Below are positions 371 through 8,831 of a stretch of 64,000 nucleotides of DNA, piece by piece. A model generated the notes under the pieces. That model saw only the letters and a program-made list of their open reading frames with translations, had not been told where the DNA came from and did not search any database. The position numbers were made by a program, and so were the translations under genes. The stretch covers positions 124,001 through 188,000 of the forward strand of contig JAUIFH010000008.1 in the NCBI GenBank assembly GCA_030429495.1. Reading direction: 5' to 3'. This stretch comes from Alphaproteobacteria bacterium. GTDB taxonomy: Bacteria; Pseudomonadota; Alphaproteobacteria; Rhodobacterales; Rhodobacteraceae. Within the stretch, counting starts at the first letter, position 1. Each line of letters opens with the position of its first letter.

Positions 371-787
371 TCAAAGCTTGTCGAGAAGTGCCAATAGCCG
401 CGAAAGTTCGCGCGGGTTGAGGTTGCGCGTCGTTCGGGCCGATATCCGCGCTGCAACCGGGATCGCGGCGCGAACCTGCGCCTCGCCCGCCTCCGTCAGC
501 GAAATCTCGACCCTCCGGCGATCGGTCGGGGACGGGCTGGCGGCGATGAAACCCTTGCGTGCCAGCCGATCGACGACGCCTTTGGTCGTCGCCGCATCCA
601 TGGCCACGAGCCGGCCAAGATGGTTCTGAGACAGCGTGCCCTCGTCGAGCAGTTTCGCCATCACCGCGAACTGCCGTGGCGTAAGCTCCGGCAACTCGGA
701 ATTGAATATTTCCAGGTGGCGCTGGTTGGCCAGTCGCAGCTTGAACCCGATCTGCTCCTCTAGGTGGTATTCCGTTTTTTCTGTCAC
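371..787 (-). CDS. MarR family transcriptional regulator
   Basis: A 138-residue protein of normal MarR length. The winged helix-turn-helix is visible: LTPRQFAVMAKLL around residues 35-47, a recognition helix around 62-78, and the wing DRRRVEISLT at 89-98, the usual DxRxxxxxLT signature. I chose the GTG at 787 because GAAGGG lies eight bases before it; the open frame continues upstream to 916 without a better start. The gene is divergent from the sulfotransferase-like gene. MarR proteins are dimeric repressors that usually respond to aromatic or phenolic ligands; the ligand here is unknown. It could control the heterocycle operon further right, but nothing in the sequence shows that. Confidence 0.88.
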   Translation of the reverse strand: MTEKTEYHLEEQIGFKLRLANQRHLEIFNSELPELTPRQFAVMAKLLDEGTLSQNHLGRLVAMDAATTKGVVDRLARKGFIAASPSPTDRRRVEISLTEAGEAQVRAAIPVAARISARTTRNLNPRELSRLLALLDKL

Positions 788-848
788 CTGTTTCCCTTCG
801 TCCGGCGTGGCGGATGCCACCCGTCGCCTCCGTTGAAAACTGTAAGGC

Positions 849-867
849 CTTGCCGCGCAAAGGCAAG
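849..867. promoter_or_regulatory. Inverted repeat, possible MarR operator
   Basis: CTTGCC (849-854) and GGCAAG (862-867) are perfect inverted arms with a 7-base spacer in the divergent region upstream of the MarR start at 787. MarR genes are often autoregulated through such palindromes. The arms are short, so this is only a candidate. Confidence 0.35.
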
Positions 868-963
868 CCGGACCCGAGACGGAGCCAGATCGAGGGGGTA
901 TCGCCATGCATTTCATGATGTTACGGTCCGGTGGGGGCCTGGCCGAACCGGAGCGAACAAACC

Positions 964-2342: not shown

Positions 2343-3272
2343 ATGGCAAAGCGCCAGCCGGCTGAACCACTCGCCCGGACCGCCCCGCCGGCGGCCCGGC
2401 CCGGCGGACACGTCCCGTTTTTCGCACGGCTCGAATCCGGGCGATTGCGGCTGGTGCAGGGGCCGATCGACCTGGTTCTCGACATTGCCGGCCCGGGCGC
2501 GGCCGTCGCCCGGTCCGAGGCGATGGCAAGGGCTGCCTTCAAAGGCCTGCTCGCCTCTCTGGTGGCTGAGTTGCCGCTGCTGCGCAGCCCGGCCGGCCCC
2601 GGCGCCGCACGCCCCTCCGGGCCCGTAGCCCGCGCCATGGCCGACGCGGTCGCGCCGTTCGCACCGTGGTTCGTGACGCCGATGGCCGCCGTCGCCGGAG
2701 CTGTCGCCGATCACATCGCCCTTGCCGCGCGGTCGGTGCCGGGTCTTACACGTGTCGCAGTCAACAACGGCGGCGATATCGCCCTGCATCTGACTGAAGG
2801 GGCGCGTTGCCGGATCGGAATCTCCGACTATCACGTCCGCGCCGCCGTAGTGGAGATCGCGGCCGGGGACGGGATCGGCGGCGTTGCGACAAGCGGCTGG
2901 CATGGCCGCAGCCATTCGCTCGGCATCGCAGACGCGGTGACGGTTCTTACCGATACCGCCGCCGGGGCCGATGCCGCCGCGACCATGATTGCCAACGCTG
3001 TCGACCTGCCCGGATCCGCGAAGGTCGAGCGGCGAACCGCCAGGGACCTCGCGCCAGACAGCGACCTCGGCGACCGGCTGGTGACGGTGGGTGTTGGCGC
3101 GCTCGACCGGGTCGAGAAGACGGCGGCGCTGGACGCCGGAGAAGCACGGGCGCGCGAGGTGATCGCGATGGGCCGGGCGCGCGCGGTATTCCTCGCGCTC
3201 CAGGGCGAGTGCAGAAGCATCGGTGAAAGGGAGGGGACCGGATGGCACAGGCCAATATCCGCAAGATCGTGA
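2343..3272 (+). CDS. UPF0280 family protein (ApbE-like)
   Basis: A 309-residue protein that I place in UPF0280. ATG 2343 has GGAGGAGAAGG just upstream. Motifs recall ApbE flavin transferases: NNGGDIA at 141-147 (compare the N-x-GGD/N motif of ApbE), an ATSGWHGRSHS segment, and an Ala/Asp-rich helix after DAVTVLT. ApbE enzymes attach FMN from FAD to a Thr of a target protein; no such activity is established for UPF0280 to my knowledge. Its 3' end overlaps the next gene by 31 bases, implying translational coupling. I infer, and do not know, that it modifies a flavoprotein encoded in the same operon. Confidence 0.8.
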   Translation: MAKRQPAEPLARTAPPAARPGGHVPFFARLESGRLRLVQGPIDLVLDIAGPGAAVARSEAMARAAFKGLLASLVAELPLLRSPAGPGAARPSGPVARAMADAVAPFAPWFVTPMAAVAGAVADHIALAARSVPGLTRVAVNNGGDIALHLTEGARCRIGISDYHVRAAVVEIAAGDGIGGVATSGWHGRSHSLGIADAVTVLTDTAAGADAAATMIANAVDLPGSAKVERRTARDLAPDSDLGDRLVTVGVGALDRVEKTAALDAGEARAREVIAMGRARAVFLALQGECRSIGEREGTGWHRPISARS

Positions 3273-3829
3273 CCGTGGTGGAAGAGGTCAGAAGCGAGAT
3301 CGGCCGGGAGATCAGCCCGCCGACCCGCCGCGCCGCCGCCATCGCGGTGATCGCGAACCCATTCGCGGGCCGCTATGTCGAGGACATCGAGGACCTGATG
3401 GTGATCGGCGAGGAACTCGGCGGGCTTCTGGGGGACGCTGCCGTCCGTGCGCTCGGCATCCGGCCCGATCAGGCGCAAAGCTACGGCAAGGCCGCGCTCG
3501 TGGGCGAGAATGGCGAGCTGGAACATGCCGCTGCCATCCTCCACCCCCGCCTCGGAAAACCCCTGCGCGCGGCGGTGGAGAAGGGCGCGGCCCTTGTGCC
3601 GTCGAACAAGAAACGCGGGCCGATGGGCCATCCGCTCGACGTGCCACTGGGCCACAAGGACGCGGCCTATGTCCGGTCGCATTTCGACGGGATGGAGGTG
3701 CGGGTGAACGACGCGCCGCGCGCCGACGAGATTCTGGTCGCCGTCGCCGTGACCGATAGCGGGCGGCCCCTGCCGCGCGTCGGCGGACTGACGCATGAGG
3801 AAGCCGAGGGCAAGGACGGGCTGAGATAG
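3242..3829 (+). CDS. AA_synth (DUF1185) family protein
   Basis: A 195-residue protein matching the family called 'amino acid synthesis' (Pfam AA_synth, formerly DUF1185): an N-terminal IRKIVTVVEEVRSEIG, the segment VIANPFAGRYVEDIEDL, and PSNKKRGPMGHPLDVPLGHK around residues 120-139. The biochemical role of the family is unsettled. The start lies 31 bases inside the UPF0280 gene behind GGGAGGGG, and the stop is one base before the next ATG. Its fixed place between an ApbE-like protein and hydroxylase subunits suggests a step on the same heterocyclic substrate, which is inference. Confidence 0.8.
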   Translation: MAQANIRKIVTVVEEVRSEIGREISPPTRRAAAIAVIANPFAGRYVEDIEDLMVIGEELGGLLGDAAVRALGIRPDQAQSYGKAALVGENGELEHAAAILHPRLGKPLRAAVEKGAALVPSNKKRGPMGHPLDVPLGHKDAAYVRSHFDGMEVRVNDAPRADEILVAVAVTDSGRPLPRVGGLTHEEAEGKDGLR

Positions 3830-3830
3830 G

Positions 3831-4664
3831 ATGACGGTCTACCGACCCGAACGGCTGGAGGACGCGCTGGGCTTTCTTGCCGAGGCCCCGGCAATGGTGC
3901 TGGCGGGCGGGACGGATGTGTTCCCCGCGCTTGGCGACCGTCTCGCGCCGCCCCGGGTGCTGGACATGACCGGCGTGCCGGATCTTCGCGGCGTCGCGCG
4001 TGATCGGGACCATTGGCGGATCGGTGCGGGGGCAAGCTGGTCCCAGTTGATTCGCGCCGACCTGCCGGCACAGTTCGACGCCCTGAAGATCGCCGGGCGG
4101 CAGGTCGGATCGGTGCAGATCCAGAACACCGGGACCGTTGCGGGCAACATCTGCAACGCGTCCCCCGCGGCGGATGGCGTACCGGTCCTGTTGGCGCTGG
4201 ATGCGTCGGTGGAGCTGGCCTCGGCCGAGGGCAGGCGGGTCGTGCCGCTCGCCGCCTTCGTGACCGGCCCCCGCCGGACCGACCTGCGCGCGGGAGAGAT
4301 CGTGACCGCGATCCTCGTTCCGCATCTGGATGGTGCGGTCTGGTCGGGGTTCGAGAAGCTCGGCAGCCGCGCCTACCTCGTCATCTCGATCGTCTCGCTC
4401 GCCGCCGTGCTGCGGTTCGAAGGCGACCGGGTTGCGGAGGCTCGCGTGGCGGCTGGCGCCTGCTCGCCCGTGCCTTTACGTCTGCCGGAACTGGAGCGCG
4501 ATCTTGTGGGGCGCGCAAGGGGATCGCTGGGCGAGGCGGTGCGGCCGGACCACTTCGCCGCGCTCACACCCATCGACGACGTGCGGGCGACCGCCGCCTA
4601 CCGGCGCGACGCTGTAGCTACGCTTGTACTACGGATGCTTTACGGATGCGGGACGGAAGAATGA
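3831..4664 (+). CDS. FAD-binding subunit of a molybdenum hydroxylase (CoxM/XdhB-like)
   Basis: A 277-residue medium subunit of the xanthine dehydrogenase family. The FAD-binding motifs are clear: VLAGGTDVFP near residue 25 and TVAGNICNASPAAD near residue 105 (the TxGGN-type loop), followed by the C-terminal CO_deh_flav_C region. It would pass electrons from the Fe-S centres of the partner to an external acceptor. It begins one base after the AA_synth stop and overlaps the next gene by four bases (ATGA), so the two hydroxylase subunits are made together. Confidence 0.9.
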   Translation: MTVYRPERLEDALGFLAEAPAMVLAGGTDVFPALGDRLAPPRVLDMTGVPDLRGVARDRDHWRIGAGASWSQLIRADLPAQFDALKIAGRQVGSVQIQNTGTVAGNICNASPAADGVPVLLALDASVELASAEGRRVVPLAAFVTGPRRTDLRAGEIVTAILVPHLDGAVWSGFEKLGSRAYLVISIVSLAAVLRFEGDRVAEARVAAGACSPVPLRLPELERDLVGRARGSLGEAVRPDHFAALTPIDDVRATAAYRRDAVATLVLRMLYGCGTEE

Positions 4665-7366
4665 CGGACATTTCCTTCATCCTGAACGGGCAGGAGGTCC
4701 GCCACGAGGGCGGCTTCGACCGCCTGTCGCGAGTGCTGCGCGACGGCTTCGGCTGTCGCGACGTGAAGGTCGGCTGCGACGCGGGCGACTGCGGCGCCTG
4801 CACCGTTCTCGTTGACGGCGACCCGGTCTGTTCCTGCATCACCGCTGCCGGGCAGGCCGCCGGGAAACGGGTCGAGACCCTGGCAGGGCTCCGCGAAGAT
4901 GGCGCTGTCTTTTCAAGGCTTTCCGAGGCATTCCTTGCACATGGTGCAGCGCAGTGTGGCATCTGCACCCCCGGTATGATGGTCGCCGCCACGGCGCTTC
5001 TGCGGCGTGTGGCGCGGCCTTCTGAGGCCGAGGTCGAGGACGCGCTGGGCGGTGTCCTCTGCCGCTGCACCGGCTACCGAAAGATCATCGACGCGGTGAT
5101 GGGCGCTGCCCGGCCAGATATCAGCGGCATGGGTGTTGGCGCCGGGATCGTACGGGTGGACGGCGCCCGTAAGGTCGAGGGGCGCGAGGTTTTCGGCGAC
5201 GACGCATCGCCTTATAACGCATTGGTTATCAAGGTTATTCGTGCGCCGGATGACCACTGCCGGTTCACCTTCGGCGACCTGAATGGCTGGAGGGAAGCCC
5301 ATGGAATCGATCTGATCCTGACCGCACGCGACGTGCCGGGAAAGAACCTGTTCGGCACTATTCCCGGCTTCATCGACCAGCCGGTCTATGCCGACGGCAT
5401 CGCCCGCTTCCGGGGCGAGGCGGTGGCATCGGTCGTGGGGCAGGCCGAAGTGATGCGAACGCTGGATTTTTCAACCGTTCCCGTCACTTGGGAACCCGTC
5501 GCCGGCGCGCGGGAGCCGGACGCAGCGAAGGCGATGGAGCCATTCCACGCCGGCCGCGCTGAGAATGTCATGTGCGCCGGCTTCGTGCAAAAGGGCGACG
5601 CGGAGGCGGCGCTGGCGCGGTCTGATTTCAGGGCCGAGGGCACGTTTGAAACCCGCTTCATCGAGCATGCCTATATCGAGCCCGAGGCGGGCTATGCCGA
5701 TTGGGTCGATGGTCGGGTGGAAGTTCATGGCGGCACACAGGCACCGCATATGAACCGCGACTCGCTGGCCGAGATTCTTGCGCTGCCGGTCGACGCGATC
5801 CGGATCGTCCCGACGGCGGTGGGCGGGGGCTTCGGCTCCAAGCTCGACATCTCGTTCCAGCCGCATGTGGCACTCGCGGCGATGCGCCTGAAGCGGGCGG
5901 TTAGGGTTGCCTATACGCGTTCTGAATCAATGGCTTCCACGACGAAGCGACATCCCGGTAAGATGCGGGTGCGGGCCGGGGTGACAAAGGACGGTCGGCT
6001 CTCCGGCTTTGTTTTCGACGGCGTCTTCAACACCGGCGCCTATTCCTCCTGGGGGCCGACCGTCGCCAACCGGGTCCCGGTTCACGCCGGCGGGCCTTAT
6101 GCCCATGCCGACTACCGTGCGCGGGCCGAGGGTGTGCATACGAATTGCCCGCCCGCCGGTGCTTTTCGGGGTTTCGGCGTCCCTCAGGCAGCCATTGCGC
6201 AGGAAGCCGTCTTTGACGATCTGGCCGCAGCGGTCGGCATGGACCGGCTGGAATTCCGCCATCTCAACGCCCTCGACAACGGTATCCCGACGGCGACCGG
6301 GCAGATCTTCGACGGGGCGGTCGGGGTGAAACCTTGCCTCGAAGCTTTGCGCCCGGCATGGAAGAAGGCACAGGAAAGTGCGAGCGTTTTCAATGAGAAG
6401 GGTGGCGAAGTTCGCAAGGGTGTCGGGATCGCCTGCGGCTGGTATGGCTGCGGGAACACCTCGCTTCCGAACCCCTCGACGATACGCGCCGGGATCACCG
6501 CCGACGGCCGCATCGTGCTCCATCAGGGCGCGATGGATATCGGTCAAGGCGCCAACACCGTCGTCGCCCAGATCTTCGCCGAGGCGCTCGGCGTCGATGT
6601 GAGACAAGTGGAAATCGTTGGCCCCGATACGGATGTGACGCCGGATGCCGGCAAGACCTCCGCCTCGCGCCAGACCTATGTGTCGGGCAATGCGGCGCGG
6701 CTGACCGGGCTGGCGCTCAGGGCGGAACTGCTCCGGCTGACGAATGCATCAGATGGGGTCATTTCCGTTTCAGAAGGAGGGATTGCGGTTATATCTTCGA
6801 GCGGAACCATCCACCGCGCGCCGCTTCCCGAAGGCGAGGGCTATGTCATCGAGGCGGCGGAAAGTTACGACCCACCGACCAAACCGCTCGATGAAAACGG
6901 TCAGGGCGTACCCTATGCTGTCTACGGCTACACCGCTCAGATGGTCGAGCTGACCGTCGATACTGGCCTTGGCACCGTGACGCTCGACCATATTCACGCG
7001 GCCCACGATGTCGGGCGGGCGATCAACCCCGTGCTGGTCGAGGGGCAGATCCACGGCGGCGTGGCGCAGGGGATCGGGCTTGCCCTGATGGAGGAGTATA
7101 TCCCCGGTCGCACCGACAACCTGCATGACTACCTGATCCCGACGATCGGGGACGTGCCGCCGATCACCAGCCATATCGTCGAGGTCGCCGATCCGAACGG
7201 ACCCTATGGCGCGAAGGGGCTGGGCGAGCATGTGCTGATCCCGACCGCGCCCGCGATCCTGTCGGCGATCCGCCACGCGACGGGCGCGCGCGTCACCCGG
7301 CTTCCGGCGACGCCCGACCGGGTTCTGGCGGCGATCCGGGCCGCGAAGGGAGATGAGGATGGTTAG
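4661..7366 (+). CDS. Fused [2Fe-2S] and molybdopterin subunit of a xanthine dehydrogenase-family hydroxylase
   Basis: A 901-residue fusion of small (CoxS) and large (CoxL) subunits. Residues 1-160 carry both Fe-S sites: the plant-type ferredoxin set CDAGDCGACT plus a later Cys, then CGICTPGMM and CRCTGY. The rest is the molybdenum domain, with GGGFGSKLD, AFRGFG and the C-terminal GAKGLGEHV, whose Glu is the catalytic base in this family. These enzymes hydroxylate N-heterocycles or aldehydes with water. The start is fixed by the ATGA overlap with the FAD gene; the frame runs on upstream inside that gene as a shadow. The substrate cannot be read from sequence; the neighbouring 6-hydroxynicotinate-reductase-like gene points to a pyridine or similar ring. 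Confidence 0.92.
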   Translation: MTDISFILNGQEVRHEGGFDRLSRVLRDGFGCRDVKVGCDAGDCGACTVLVDGDPVCSCITAAGQAAGKRVETLAGLREDGAVFSRLSEAFLAHGAAQCGICTPGMMVAATALLRRVARPSEAEVEDALGGVLCRCTGYRKIIDAVMGAARPDISGMGVGAGIVRVDGARKVEGREVFGDDASPYNALVIKVIRAPDDHCRFTFGDLNGWREAHGIDLILTARDVPGKNLFGTIPGFIDQPVYADGIARFRGEAVASVVGQAEVMRTLDFSTVPVTWEPVAGAREPDAAKAMEPFHAGRAENVMCAGFVQKGDAEAALARSDFRAEGTFETRFIEHAYIEPEAGYADWVDGRVEVHGGTQAPHMNRDSLAEILALPVDAIRIVPTAVGGGFGSKLDISFQPHVALAAMRLKRAVRVAYTRSESMASTTKRHPGKMRVRAGVTKDGRLSGFVFDGVFNTGAYSSWGPTVANRVPVHAGGPYAHADYRARAEGVHTNCPPAGAFRGFGVPQAAIAQEAVFDDLAAAVGMDRLEFRHLNALDNGIPTATGQIFDGAVGVKPCLEALRPAWKKAQESASVFNEKGGEVRKGVGIACGWYGCGNTSLPNPSTIRAGITADGRIVLHQGAMDIGQGANTVVAQIFAEALGVDVRQVEIVGPDTDVTPDAGKTSASRQTYVSGNAARLTGLALRAELLRLTNASDGVISVSEGGIAVISSSGTIHRAPLPEGEGYVIEAAESYDPPTKPLDENGQGVPYAVYGYTAQMVELTVDTGLGTVTLDHIHAAHDVGRAINPVLVEGQIHGGVAQGIGLALMEEYIPGRTDNLHDYLIPTIGDVPPITSHIVEVADPNGPYGAKGLGEHVLIPTAPAILSAIRHATGARVTRLPATPDRVLAAIRAAKGDEDG

Positions 7367-8831
7367 ACAAGCCGTTGAATCTCGTGTGGAAGGCAAGATC
7401 CGCTGCGATGCCTGCCCGGTCATGTGCTACATCGCCGAGGGCCGCGCTGGGGCCTGCGACCGCTACGCGAATGAGGGTGGCGAACTGGTGCGGCTCGACC
7501 CGTTCACGGTGCTTGAGGCCGCGAAGGAAGGCGACGGGCAGGTTGTGCCGTTCCTTGAACGCGAGGCCGGCGAATGGGACGGCGACATTCTGAGGACCGA
7601 ACGGCCCTTCATCACCGCCATCGGCGCGGGAACCACCTATCCCGACTACAAGCCCGCCCCCTTCATCGTGGCGCAGGACCATGATGGGATCGACATGGTC
7701 ACCATCGTGACCGAGGGAATCTTTTCTTATTGCGGCGCCAAGGTGAAGGTCGACACCGACCGCTTCCTGGGGCCGGAGGCCGCGTCTGTCCGGGTCGATG
7801 GCGAGGCGATCGGTCATGTGATGACGGCCGAATACGGATCGCAGATGCTGTCGCTGGGGGGCGTTCATCACCTGACCGGCGGTTCGAAGAAGGAGGGGCG
7901 GGTGACATGCTCCTCCCTCCTGAAGCTCTGCAACAGGGAGCCGGTGACGGTTACCATCGACGGCGGGGCGGAGGTTGTTCTGGAGGCCGGCAAACCGCCC
8001 GTCGTGAACGGGGTGGAGGAGCACCTGATGCGCGTCGGCTGCGGCTCTGCCACCATCGGCATGTTCGCGCGGCAGTGGCACGGTCTGGTGGACGAGGTCG
8101 TCGTGGTCGACGATCACATCACCGGGGTGCTGAGCGAGCATCAGGCGGGGCGGCTTCTGGGGCTGGAGCCGTCGGGCATCAAGATCCTCGGCCACAAGTC
8201 GACGCCGGGGCGCTACTTCCGGGTGGCCGATCCGGGGACGGGCTGGGGCGGCACCAATATCGAGGATCCGCTGACCATCCTCGGGCCGTGGCGCGCACCG
8301 GCGGCTCCCGGTCTCAGGCTGTTGATTGTCTCAACCACCGGCGAGCAATGGGGCTACTATGTCCTTGATGATGAATTGCGGCCGGTGCAGTCGGAACTGC
8401 CCGAAAGCCTCCGGACCTCGGTCGAGAGGATCGCCGAGAACTGTGAGCCTTCGGTGACCTCGGTCCTCTTCATGGGCGGCGCGGGCGGTAGTCTGCGCGC
8501 CGGCGTGACGGAGAACCCGGTGCGCCTGACCCGGTCGGTGCGGCAGGCGGTGACGCAGGTCACCTGCGGCGGGGCGGAATGCTACATCTGGCCGGGAGGC
8601 GGCATCACCTTCATGGCGGATGTGACCGAGATGCCGTCGAACGCCTTCGGCTATGTGCCCACACCGGCGCTGGTCGCGCCGATCGAGTTCACAATGCGGC
8701 TTCGCGACTACGAGGCGCTTGGCGGTCACATGGATCAGGTCCGCCGGGTCGAGGATATCGGGCGCGACATCGAGCGGCGCGTCTCGACGACCCGCCCGAT
8801 ACCGGGGCGGGAGCGTAGCGGGCGGCCCTGA
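7359..8831 (+). CDS. 6-hydroxynicotinate reductase-like iron-sulfur flavoprotein
   Basis: A 490-residue protein that I recognise as the 6-hydroxynicotinate reductase (Hnr) type. Residues 16-33 form a CxxCxxxC-x9-C cluster (C16, C19, C23, C33), and further Cys occur in FSYCG, VTCSS, RVGCG and TCGGAEC. Hnr of Eubacterium barkeri was described as carrying a covalent flavin and several Fe-S clusters and reduces the hydroxylated pyridine ring. ATG 7359 overlaps the previous stop and has AAGGGAG six bases before it; ATG 7353 is possible but too close to that site. A conserved-looking PGTGWGGT stretch is a speculative flavin-attachment site. It ends the operon, four bases from the convergent DsbA gene. 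Confidence 0.8.
   Translation: MVRQAVESRVEGKIRCDACPVMCYIAEGRAGACDRYANEGGELVRLDPFTVLEAAKEGDGQVVPFLEREAGEWDGDILRTERPFITAIGAGTTYPDYKPAPFIVAQDHDGIDMVTIVTEGIFSYCGAKVKVDTDRFLGPEAASVRVDGEAIGHVMTAEYGSQMLSLGGVHHLTGGSKKEGRVTCSSLLKLCNREPVTVTIDGGAEVVLEAGKPPVVNGVEEHLMRVGCGSATIGMFARQWHGLVDEVVVVDDHITGVLSEHQAGRLLGLEPSGIKILGHKSTPGRYFRVADPGTGWGGTNIEDPLTILGPWRAPAAPGLRLLIVSTTGEQWGYYVLDDELRPVQSELPESLRTSVERIAENCEPSVTSVLFMGGAGGSLRAGVTENPVRLTRSVRQAVTQVTCGGAECYIWPGGGITFMADVTEMPSNAFGYVPTPALVAPIEFTMRLRDYEALGGHMDQVRRVEDIGRDIERRVSTTRPIPGRERSGRP

Follow-up and report, generated by a model that had tools for sequence, protein, structure and literature searches.

Two described systems for nicotinate breakdown stand close to the operon studied here, which occupies positions 2343–8831 of a 64,000-nucleotide stretch of Rhodobacteraceae DNA (GenBank assembly GCA_030429495.1, contig JAUIFH010000008.1, positions 124,001 to 188,000 of the forward strand; the whole stretch is called the window). 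The operon encodes a UPF0280 family protein, an AA_synth protein, a molybdenum hydroxylase and a 6-hydroxynicotinate-reductase-like protein (HNR). The first system is the nicotinate cluster of Eubacterium barkeri. An HNR-like reductase, a molybdenum hydroxylase, an enamidase (2vun) and the Fe-S cysteines are common to this cluster and the window genome. The molybdopterin protein of the E. barkeri hydroxylase (the nicotinate dehydrogenase 3hrd) consists of two subunits, A and B, whereas that of the window is one chain fused to an FeS domain. The window lineage is proteobacterial and largely aerobic, unlike E. barkeri.

The second system is the conserved cluster of Bradyrhizobiaceae SG-6C and Azorhizobium caulinodans ORS571. 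According to PMC3511419, SG-6C grows on nicotinate, and its HNR homologue is 42% identical to E. barkeri Hnr. Besides the genes of the first three steps, the cluster codes for a transporter and for two proteins without known function. These two are presumably UPF0280 and AA_synth, judging by what related Bradyrhizobium loci contain. The related Bradyrhizobium loci carry nicB/nicA, whereas the window operon has an XDH-type hydroxylase instead. The window also differs from them in gene order (UPF0280–AA_synth–hydroxylase–HNR) and in having the enamidase of its genome on another contig. The original prediction presented the module as newly defined. The cluster and the route from nicotinate to 1,4,5,6-tetrahydro-6-oxonicotinate (THON) in aerobic alphaproteobacteria were already published (PMC3511419; Azorhizobium also in PMC9304392). 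What is added here is one named client of an uncharacterised protein family, and a way of testing it.

The main finding, held with high confidence, is the near-obligate pairing of HNR with UPF0280 in Pseudomonadota. The reading favoured here, with moderate confidence, is a nicotinate-type module in which UPF0280 acts as the dedicated maturation factor of HNR, most likely as a flavin transferase. The genes of the operon are as follows (FAD, flavin adenine dinucleotide):

2343..3272, + strand: UPF0280 family protein (ApbE superfamily), 309 residues; NCBIfam NF003322 at 311 bits, over the cut-off of 290
3242..3829, + strand: AA_synth (PF06684, formerly DUF1185), 246 bits, over the cut-off of 27
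3831..4664, + strand: FAD subunit of molybdenum hydroxylase; PF00941 (FAD_binding_5) and PF03450 (CO_deh_flav_C) over cut-off
4661..7366, + strand: fused 2Fe-2S and molybdopterin subunit (FeS-Mo subunit) of molybdenum hydroxylase; PF01799 (Fer2_2), PF02738 (MoCoBD_1) and PF20256 (MoCoBD_2) over cut-off
7353..8831, + strand: HNR, 6-hydroxynicotinate-reductase-like protein, named after its relatives in plasmid records

All five reading frames are open and on the same strand, and each overlaps the next or lies 1 bp from it. The overlaps are 31 bp (UPF0280 and AA_synth), 4 bp (FAD and fused FeS-Mo subunits) and 14 bp (fused FeS-Mo subunit and HNR), and the 1 bp gap separates AA_synth from the FAD subunit. 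The compact five-gene operon that had been predicted was therefore confirmed, with the gene families supported by profile scores. Among relatives, L034 (Defluviimonas salinarum) and L035 have the same gene order.

Pairing of HNR and UPF0280

Three draws of genomes and a plasmid collection were searched. The first draw was an even one of 299 Pseudomonadota genomes. The second comprised 229 genomes of the class of one of these (G207, common to both draws). The third comprised 295 genomes of 294 genera from the window's own family, among them the window genome (G000) and G277, which are also in the first draw. The plasmid collection held 72,556 records. Sharing was judged by comparing genome handles or plasmid accessions, and HNR matches over about 35 residues were not counted as HNR.

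HNR matched 27 of the 299 Pseudomonadota genomes; the match was near full-length in 20 of them, split into two adjacent pieces in G016 and confined to about 35 residues in the other 6. UPF0280 (NF003322) was over the cut-off in 21, the same 21 genomes that have HNR; one more genome reached 22 bits. In the class of G207, near full-length HNR was present in 3 of 229 genomes and UPF0280 in the same 3, and 17 further genomes had the short HNR stretch only. In the window's family, HNR and UPF0280 were each found in 103 of 295 genomes, 102 of them shared (phi 0.985). The HNR-only genome (G551) has its HNR truncated by a contig end, and in the UPF0280-only genome (G693) UPF0280 begins at base 1 of the contig. 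Eight of the 103 family UPF0280 matches were below the cut-off; these are partial, split or stop-broken. Several stops occur in both genes of G557. Since the family sample spans 294 genera and about one third of the genomes are positive, many joint gains or losses of the two genes are indicated.

The plasmid records gave the same result. HNR was found in 26 of the 72,556 records and UPF0280 in 27, which are the same 26 plus Hydrogenophaga sp. BPS33. On its plasmid pBPS33-1 (L171), a C-terminal stump of HNR lies directly upstream of UPF0280 (36–42 aligned residues, E 1e-4 to 4e-6), beside IS1071; this is a cut-down HNR–UPF0280 pair. In a repeated unit beside IS1071, the plasmid carries UPF0280 together with a Rieske oxygenase, a PDR/VanB reductase and transporter binding proteins, and UPF0280 matches occur at 4 places.

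The short matches involve the N-terminal Cys stretch of HNR, which gave weak matches in many genomes at 41–53% identity over about 35 residues. They were considered as distant HNRs and rejected: all four tested, of the six in the 299 genomes, were AmmeMemoRadiSam radical SAM enzymes.

Gene neighbourhoods were examined in the best 80 of 593 confirmed HNR loci, a set biased to close relatives, with many Bradyrhizobium and several loci on short contigs. UPF0280 was on the strand of HNR in 76 of the best 80 loci, within 1.5 kb downstream in 72 and upstream in 4. Such an arrangement is not due to chance. The remaining four loci (L037, L057, L064 and L087) lack UPF0280 in the stretch examined, and all four genomes have UPF0280 over the cut-off. 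In L037 it lies just past the edge of the stretch; for the other three it is on a different contig from HNR. The L087 genome has no UPF0280 within 10 kb of HNR and has an intact copy on another contig (the TAG in the match terminates the gene). In G481, HNR and UPF0280 are on separate contigs (70.6 and 17.8 kb), both far from the contig ends. Both genes are present in these two genomes although unlinked; thus the pair persists without linkage and is not only the result of operon inheritance.

The other genes of the loci were more variable. With each gene kind assigned by similarity to one reference protein, the hydroxylase of the best 80 HNR loci was of XDH type only in 37, of nicB type only in 36, of both types in 2 and of neither in 5. 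The ring-opening genes were enamidase-like in 45, HyuAB in 8 and neither in 27, where "enamidase-like" means similar to the amidohydrolase of L032, and comparison with the Protein Data Bank was made for the L032 and window genome genes only. UPF0280 stays with HNR while the hydroxylase and the ring-opening genes change, which indicates HNR as the partner, rather than the hydroxylase or the ring opening.

These counts bear on a reading in which UPF0280 is a pathway enzyme or regulator that acts on a metabolite of the route and is tied to HNR through the shared pathway only. UPF0280 does sit within catabolic operons, and no use of its name was found in the open-licence literature searched, papers on ApbE included, which leaves room for such a role. 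This reading is nevertheless quite improbable: UPF0280 is retained with either kind of hydroxylase and either kind of ring-opening gene, it is bound to HNR far more tightly than is AA_synth of the same operons, and its fold is that of flavin transferases. The results suggested that UPF0280 very probably serves the maturation of HNR.

UPF0280 and HNR compared with flavin transferases and their targets

ApbE, FmnB and Ftp are FAD:protein FMN transferases (PF02424; FMN, flavin mononucleotide). In the ApbE of Vibrio cholerae, as given in PMC12052999, the catalytic triad is Asp285-Ser241-His257, with His as the general base; the H257G variant has lowered activity, and its Km for FAD is reported. 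A cytosolic ApbE of Klebsiella is described in the same source. Like the Klebsiella enzyme, whose client is a soluble fumarate reductase, UPF0280 is proposed to act in the cytosol as the flavin transferase of a soluble reductase. The Klebsiella protein is a true ApbE with a canonical target motif, whereas UPF0280 is a separate family.

The AlphaFold2 model of the window UPF0280 had a mean predicted local distance difference test score (pLDDT) of 90.5 and a predicted template modelling score of 0.89. Foldseek with this model placed 2o34, a UPF0280 structure, first (E 2e-9). Ranks 3–36 were ApbE, FmnB and Ftp exclusively (E 8e-5 to 4e-2), and nothing else was below E 1. Profile comparison by hhalign of UPF0280 with 13 ApbE sequences gave a probability of 93.9 and E 1.6e-7 over 94 columns, in which GGD, ATSG and SVTV...AD..AT were matched. 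The ApbE-like character claimed for UPF0280 thus holds at the level of fold and profile. The matched motifs, and the segments of HNR discussed below, are:

2769..2777, + strand: GGD motif of UPF0280, residues 143-145; aligned to GG[DE] of ApbE by hhalign; invariant in 39 of 39
2886..2897, + strand: ATSG motif of UPF0280, residues 182-185; S184 in 39 of 39; aligned to ApbE by hhalign
2967..2984, + strand: ADAAAT motif of UPF0280, residues 209-214; D210 in 39 of 39, T214 in 38 of 39; aligned to ApbE by hhalign
7404..7457, + strand: Cys cluster at the N-terminus of HNR, C18 to C35; probably an Fe-S site, from conserved Cys
8109..8141, + strand: residues 253-263 of HNR (DDHITGVLSEH), a segment that may be flavinylated, with T257 as candidate residue

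An alignment of 39 UPF0280 proteins (38 of the 76 found in the best 80 loci, and the window protein) showed G143, G144, D145, S184, R189, S190 and D210 to be invariant and T214 to be conserved in 38. From the aligned motifs, the Ser of ATSG (S184) would correspond to the catalytic Ser of ApbE, and the Asp of ADAAAT (D210) to the Asp of the ApbE triad. No secretion signal was seen in UPF0280 by eye, and no predictor was run.

For HNR, no Pfam or NCBIfam model matched, comparison with the sequences of solved structures gave no credible match (best E 0.89), and no solved fold matched its structural model at E 0.001 or better. The matches in the 26 plasmid records are 64–72% identical to HNR; those annotated as 6-hydroxynicotinate reductase are 65–72% identical. 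C18, C21, C25 and C35 are invariant in 10 HNR proteins and present in at least 90% of 41 (40 from the best 80 loci, and the window protein). Of the other Cys residues, C127, C186, C230 and C364 are invariant or present in at least 90%, and the His residues H155, H173, H255 and H263 are invariant. D253–G258 (T257 included) and E262 are likewise invariant in the 41. The segment 253–263 loosely recalls the ApbE motif, which makes T257 or S/T261 candidate flavin sites.

In the reading favoured here, UPF0280 would be a cytosolic ApbE relative that binds FAD with Mg2+ and is dedicated to HNR. It would most likely pass the FMN half of FAD to a Thr or Ser of HNR, with T257 as a candidate, so that the flavin becomes covalently bound. 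This transfer is considered fairly probable.

Several observations weigh against it. The TM-scores of the UPF0280 model to ApbE, FmnB and Ftp structures are low (0.26–0.41), and Pfam ApbE (PF02424) gave the window protein 16.6 bits, under the cut-off of 25.6. At the position of the ApbE general-base His, set by motif because the loop alignment to ApbE is gapped, 20 of the 39 UPF0280 proteins have L, 10 have F, 7 have H (window protein included), and Q and M occur once each. None of the 41 HNR proteins contains the canonical ApbE target motif D-x-x-[ST]-G-A-[ST]. T257 was therefore rejected as a canonical ApbE site and remains a loose candidate; the structural model of HNR reaches only a middling confidence (pLDDT 73), so that any placing of T257 relative to a flavin would be tentative. 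Two ordinary ApbE genes lie elsewhere in the window genome, so that a flavin transferase besides UPF0280 is at hand. UPF0280 relatives below the NF003322 cut-off occur in Methanocaldococcus jannaschii and Methanosarcina acetivorans, where HNR was not searched for. Five further family genomes show a single TGA in one of the two matches, in HNR for G609 and G703 and in UPF0280 for G588, G722 and G752. The sampled genomes are related, so the P values of HNR–UPF0280 co-occurrence overstate independence and cannot be taken at face value. The Hnr of E. barkeri reportedly carries a covalent flavin and Fe-S clusters. A search of the open-licence literature for "6-hydroxynicotinate" with "flavinylation" returned a liver-cell study as the sole match.

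Because the general-base His is mostly absent and the target motif is absent from HNR, UPF0280 is, as judged from its sequence, not an ApbE proper. It shares the fold and the GGD, ATSG and AD..AT motifs with ApbE, FmnB and Ftp. Unlike them, it has no visible secretion signal, lacks the His in 32 of 39 proteins, falls below the Pfam cut-off and has a partner without D-x-x-[ST]-G-A-[ST].

The retention of the ApbE fold with Ser, Asp and GGD, together with the loss of His and the missing motif in HNR, can also be read in another way. UPF0280 may be a maturation factor that transfers nothing: it may insert FAD or FMN, help to assemble the Fe-S/flavin centre or be a stable subunit of HNR. HNR would then form any covalent bond on its own, in the manner of self-catalytic 8-alpha linkages, and the invariant residues C127, C186, C230, C364, H155, H173, H255 and H263 could bear such a linkage. 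The HNR–UPF0280 pairing fits this reading equally. It is considered rather unlikely, since the Asp, Thr and Ser that match the ApbE active site are almost invariant in UPF0280. In addition, the V. cholerae H257G variant is only lowered in activity, as stated in PMC12052999; thus the loss of His need not abolish transfer.

A broader proposal can be made tentatively and is doubtful at present. UPF0280 may be a second class of protein flavin transferase that is cytosolic, mostly without the ApbE His, specific to HNR as an obligate partner and directed to a non-canonical site such as T257 in VDDHITGVLSEH. The UPF0280 proteins of methanogens and Desulfovibrio might then serve other covalent flavoproteins.

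For UPF0280, a structure (2o34) has been solved and a curated NCBI model exists, and the near-perfect pairing supplies one defined client. The function of UPF0280 becomes testable by two-gene co-expression with HNR. If flavin transfer by UPF0280 is true, it would explain how Hnr acquires its covalent flavin, and protein flavinylation would then also take in a catabolic ring reductase, modified at a non-canonical site.

Hydroxylase, enamidase and the substrate of the module

The operon would encode the first two steps in the breakdown of nicotinate, or of a close pyridine carboxylate, together with a factor that matures the second enzyme. The molybdenum hydroxylase (3831–7366) would add oxygen at C6 to give 6-hydroxynicotinate. 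HNR, as a cytosolic Fe-S flavoprotein, would reduce the ring to THON, which would be opened by an enamidase encoded elsewhere in the genome.

An enamidase homologue was found in the window genome on another contig (G000:C17:474924-476120), with E 1.6e-110 to the enamidase 2vun. It is 95% identical to the gene beside HNR in L034. The amidohydrolase of L032 is likewise an enamidase by sequence (2vun, E 2.4e-111). The window genome contains a molybdenum hydroxylase, HNR and an enamidase homologue; it can therefore encode all three reactions, namely the hydroxylation, reduction and opening of the ring. The neighbourhood of the enamidase gene (L177, G000:C17:466000-485000) includes an LtrA protein, a RACo-like corrinoid-activating protein, a class III CoA-transferase, and a histidine kinase with a sigma-54 response regulator.

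The window hydroxylase is of XDH type and not of nicA/nicB type, and it reached no NCBIfam cut-off. Among solved chains, the best single match of the fused FeS-Mo subunit was aldehyde oxidoreductase 1sij (360 bits), followed by 4-hydroxybenzoyl-CoA reductase (289 bits). Nicotinate dehydrogenase 3hrd matched it through both molybdopterin subunits, with 259 and 205 bits.

The hydroxylase type, the lack of an NCBIfam assignment and the aldehyde oxidoreductase as best single solved chain would also suit an azaarene other than nicotinate, for example a different pyridine carboxylate. The XDH type is as common as the nicB type in the best 80 loci, and no transporter is among the genes tested that adjoin the window operon. 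Such a substrate, which is compatible with any reading of UPF0280, is unlikely in view of the enamidase homologue in the window genome, the presence of both E. barkeri nicotinate dehydrogenase molybdopterin subunits among the solved relatives of the hydroxylase, and the strong conservation of HNR over loci of both hydroxylase types. Homarine was considered as a substrate and rejected; no paper on a homarine operon was found by title in the open-licence literature searched. Nicotinate or a close pyridine carboxylate is retained as the probable substrate.

AA_synth and neighbouring genes

AA_synth was found in 41 of the 299 Pseudomonadota genomes, 21 of them without HNR, and in 20 of the 21 HNR genomes (the exception is G139). 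It was also found in 388 plasmid records. UPF0280, AA_synth and HNR had been expected to co-occur as one unit. The HNR–UPF0280 part of this expectation stands, from the Pseudomonadota, class, family and plasmid samples, and the unit is rejected for AA_synth, whose distribution in genomes and plasmids is far wider than that of HNR. AA_synth would be an accessory of this and other clusters, dispensable for HNR maturation.

The solved relatives of the window AA_synth are 2qtp (SPO0826, E 3e-95) and 3byq (BB2672, E 3e-32), AA_synth/DUF1185 proteins of the same Pfam family. A role in amino-acid metabolism is a published guess for AA_synth/DUF1185, according to PMC2954203. The family had been regarded as having no assigned function. 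A role has been proposed for its homologue TgnF of trigonelline degradation: according to PMC7913881, TgnF stimulates the TgnE-dependent oxidation of succinic semialdehyde, an effect that the authors did not see with their own protein HcdD.

Two AA_synth genes are present in 37 of the best 80 loci. Where both score, they reach about 300 and 150 bits to the window protein, and the paired proteins might form a mixed hexamer. The second AA_synth of the window genome (L176, G000:C2:98000-117000) adjoins an AraC-type regulator and a branched-chain-type ATP-binding cassette transporter. The single HNR match of the genome is on another contig than this gene.

Upstream of the operon lies a divergent gene:

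371..916, - strand: MarR-family regulator; PF01047 at 45 bits; divergent to the operon

An open reading frame at 931–2244, between this gene and the operon, appears sulfotransferase-like by eye and matched no Pfam or NCBIfam model. In L034 and L035, there is no room for its counterpart between the matching MarR gene and UPF0280. The MarR gene is the probable regulator of the operon. A matching MarR gene is directly upstream of UPF0280 in L034 and L035, and a MarR gene similar to that of L031 is present in 58 of the best 80 HNR loci.

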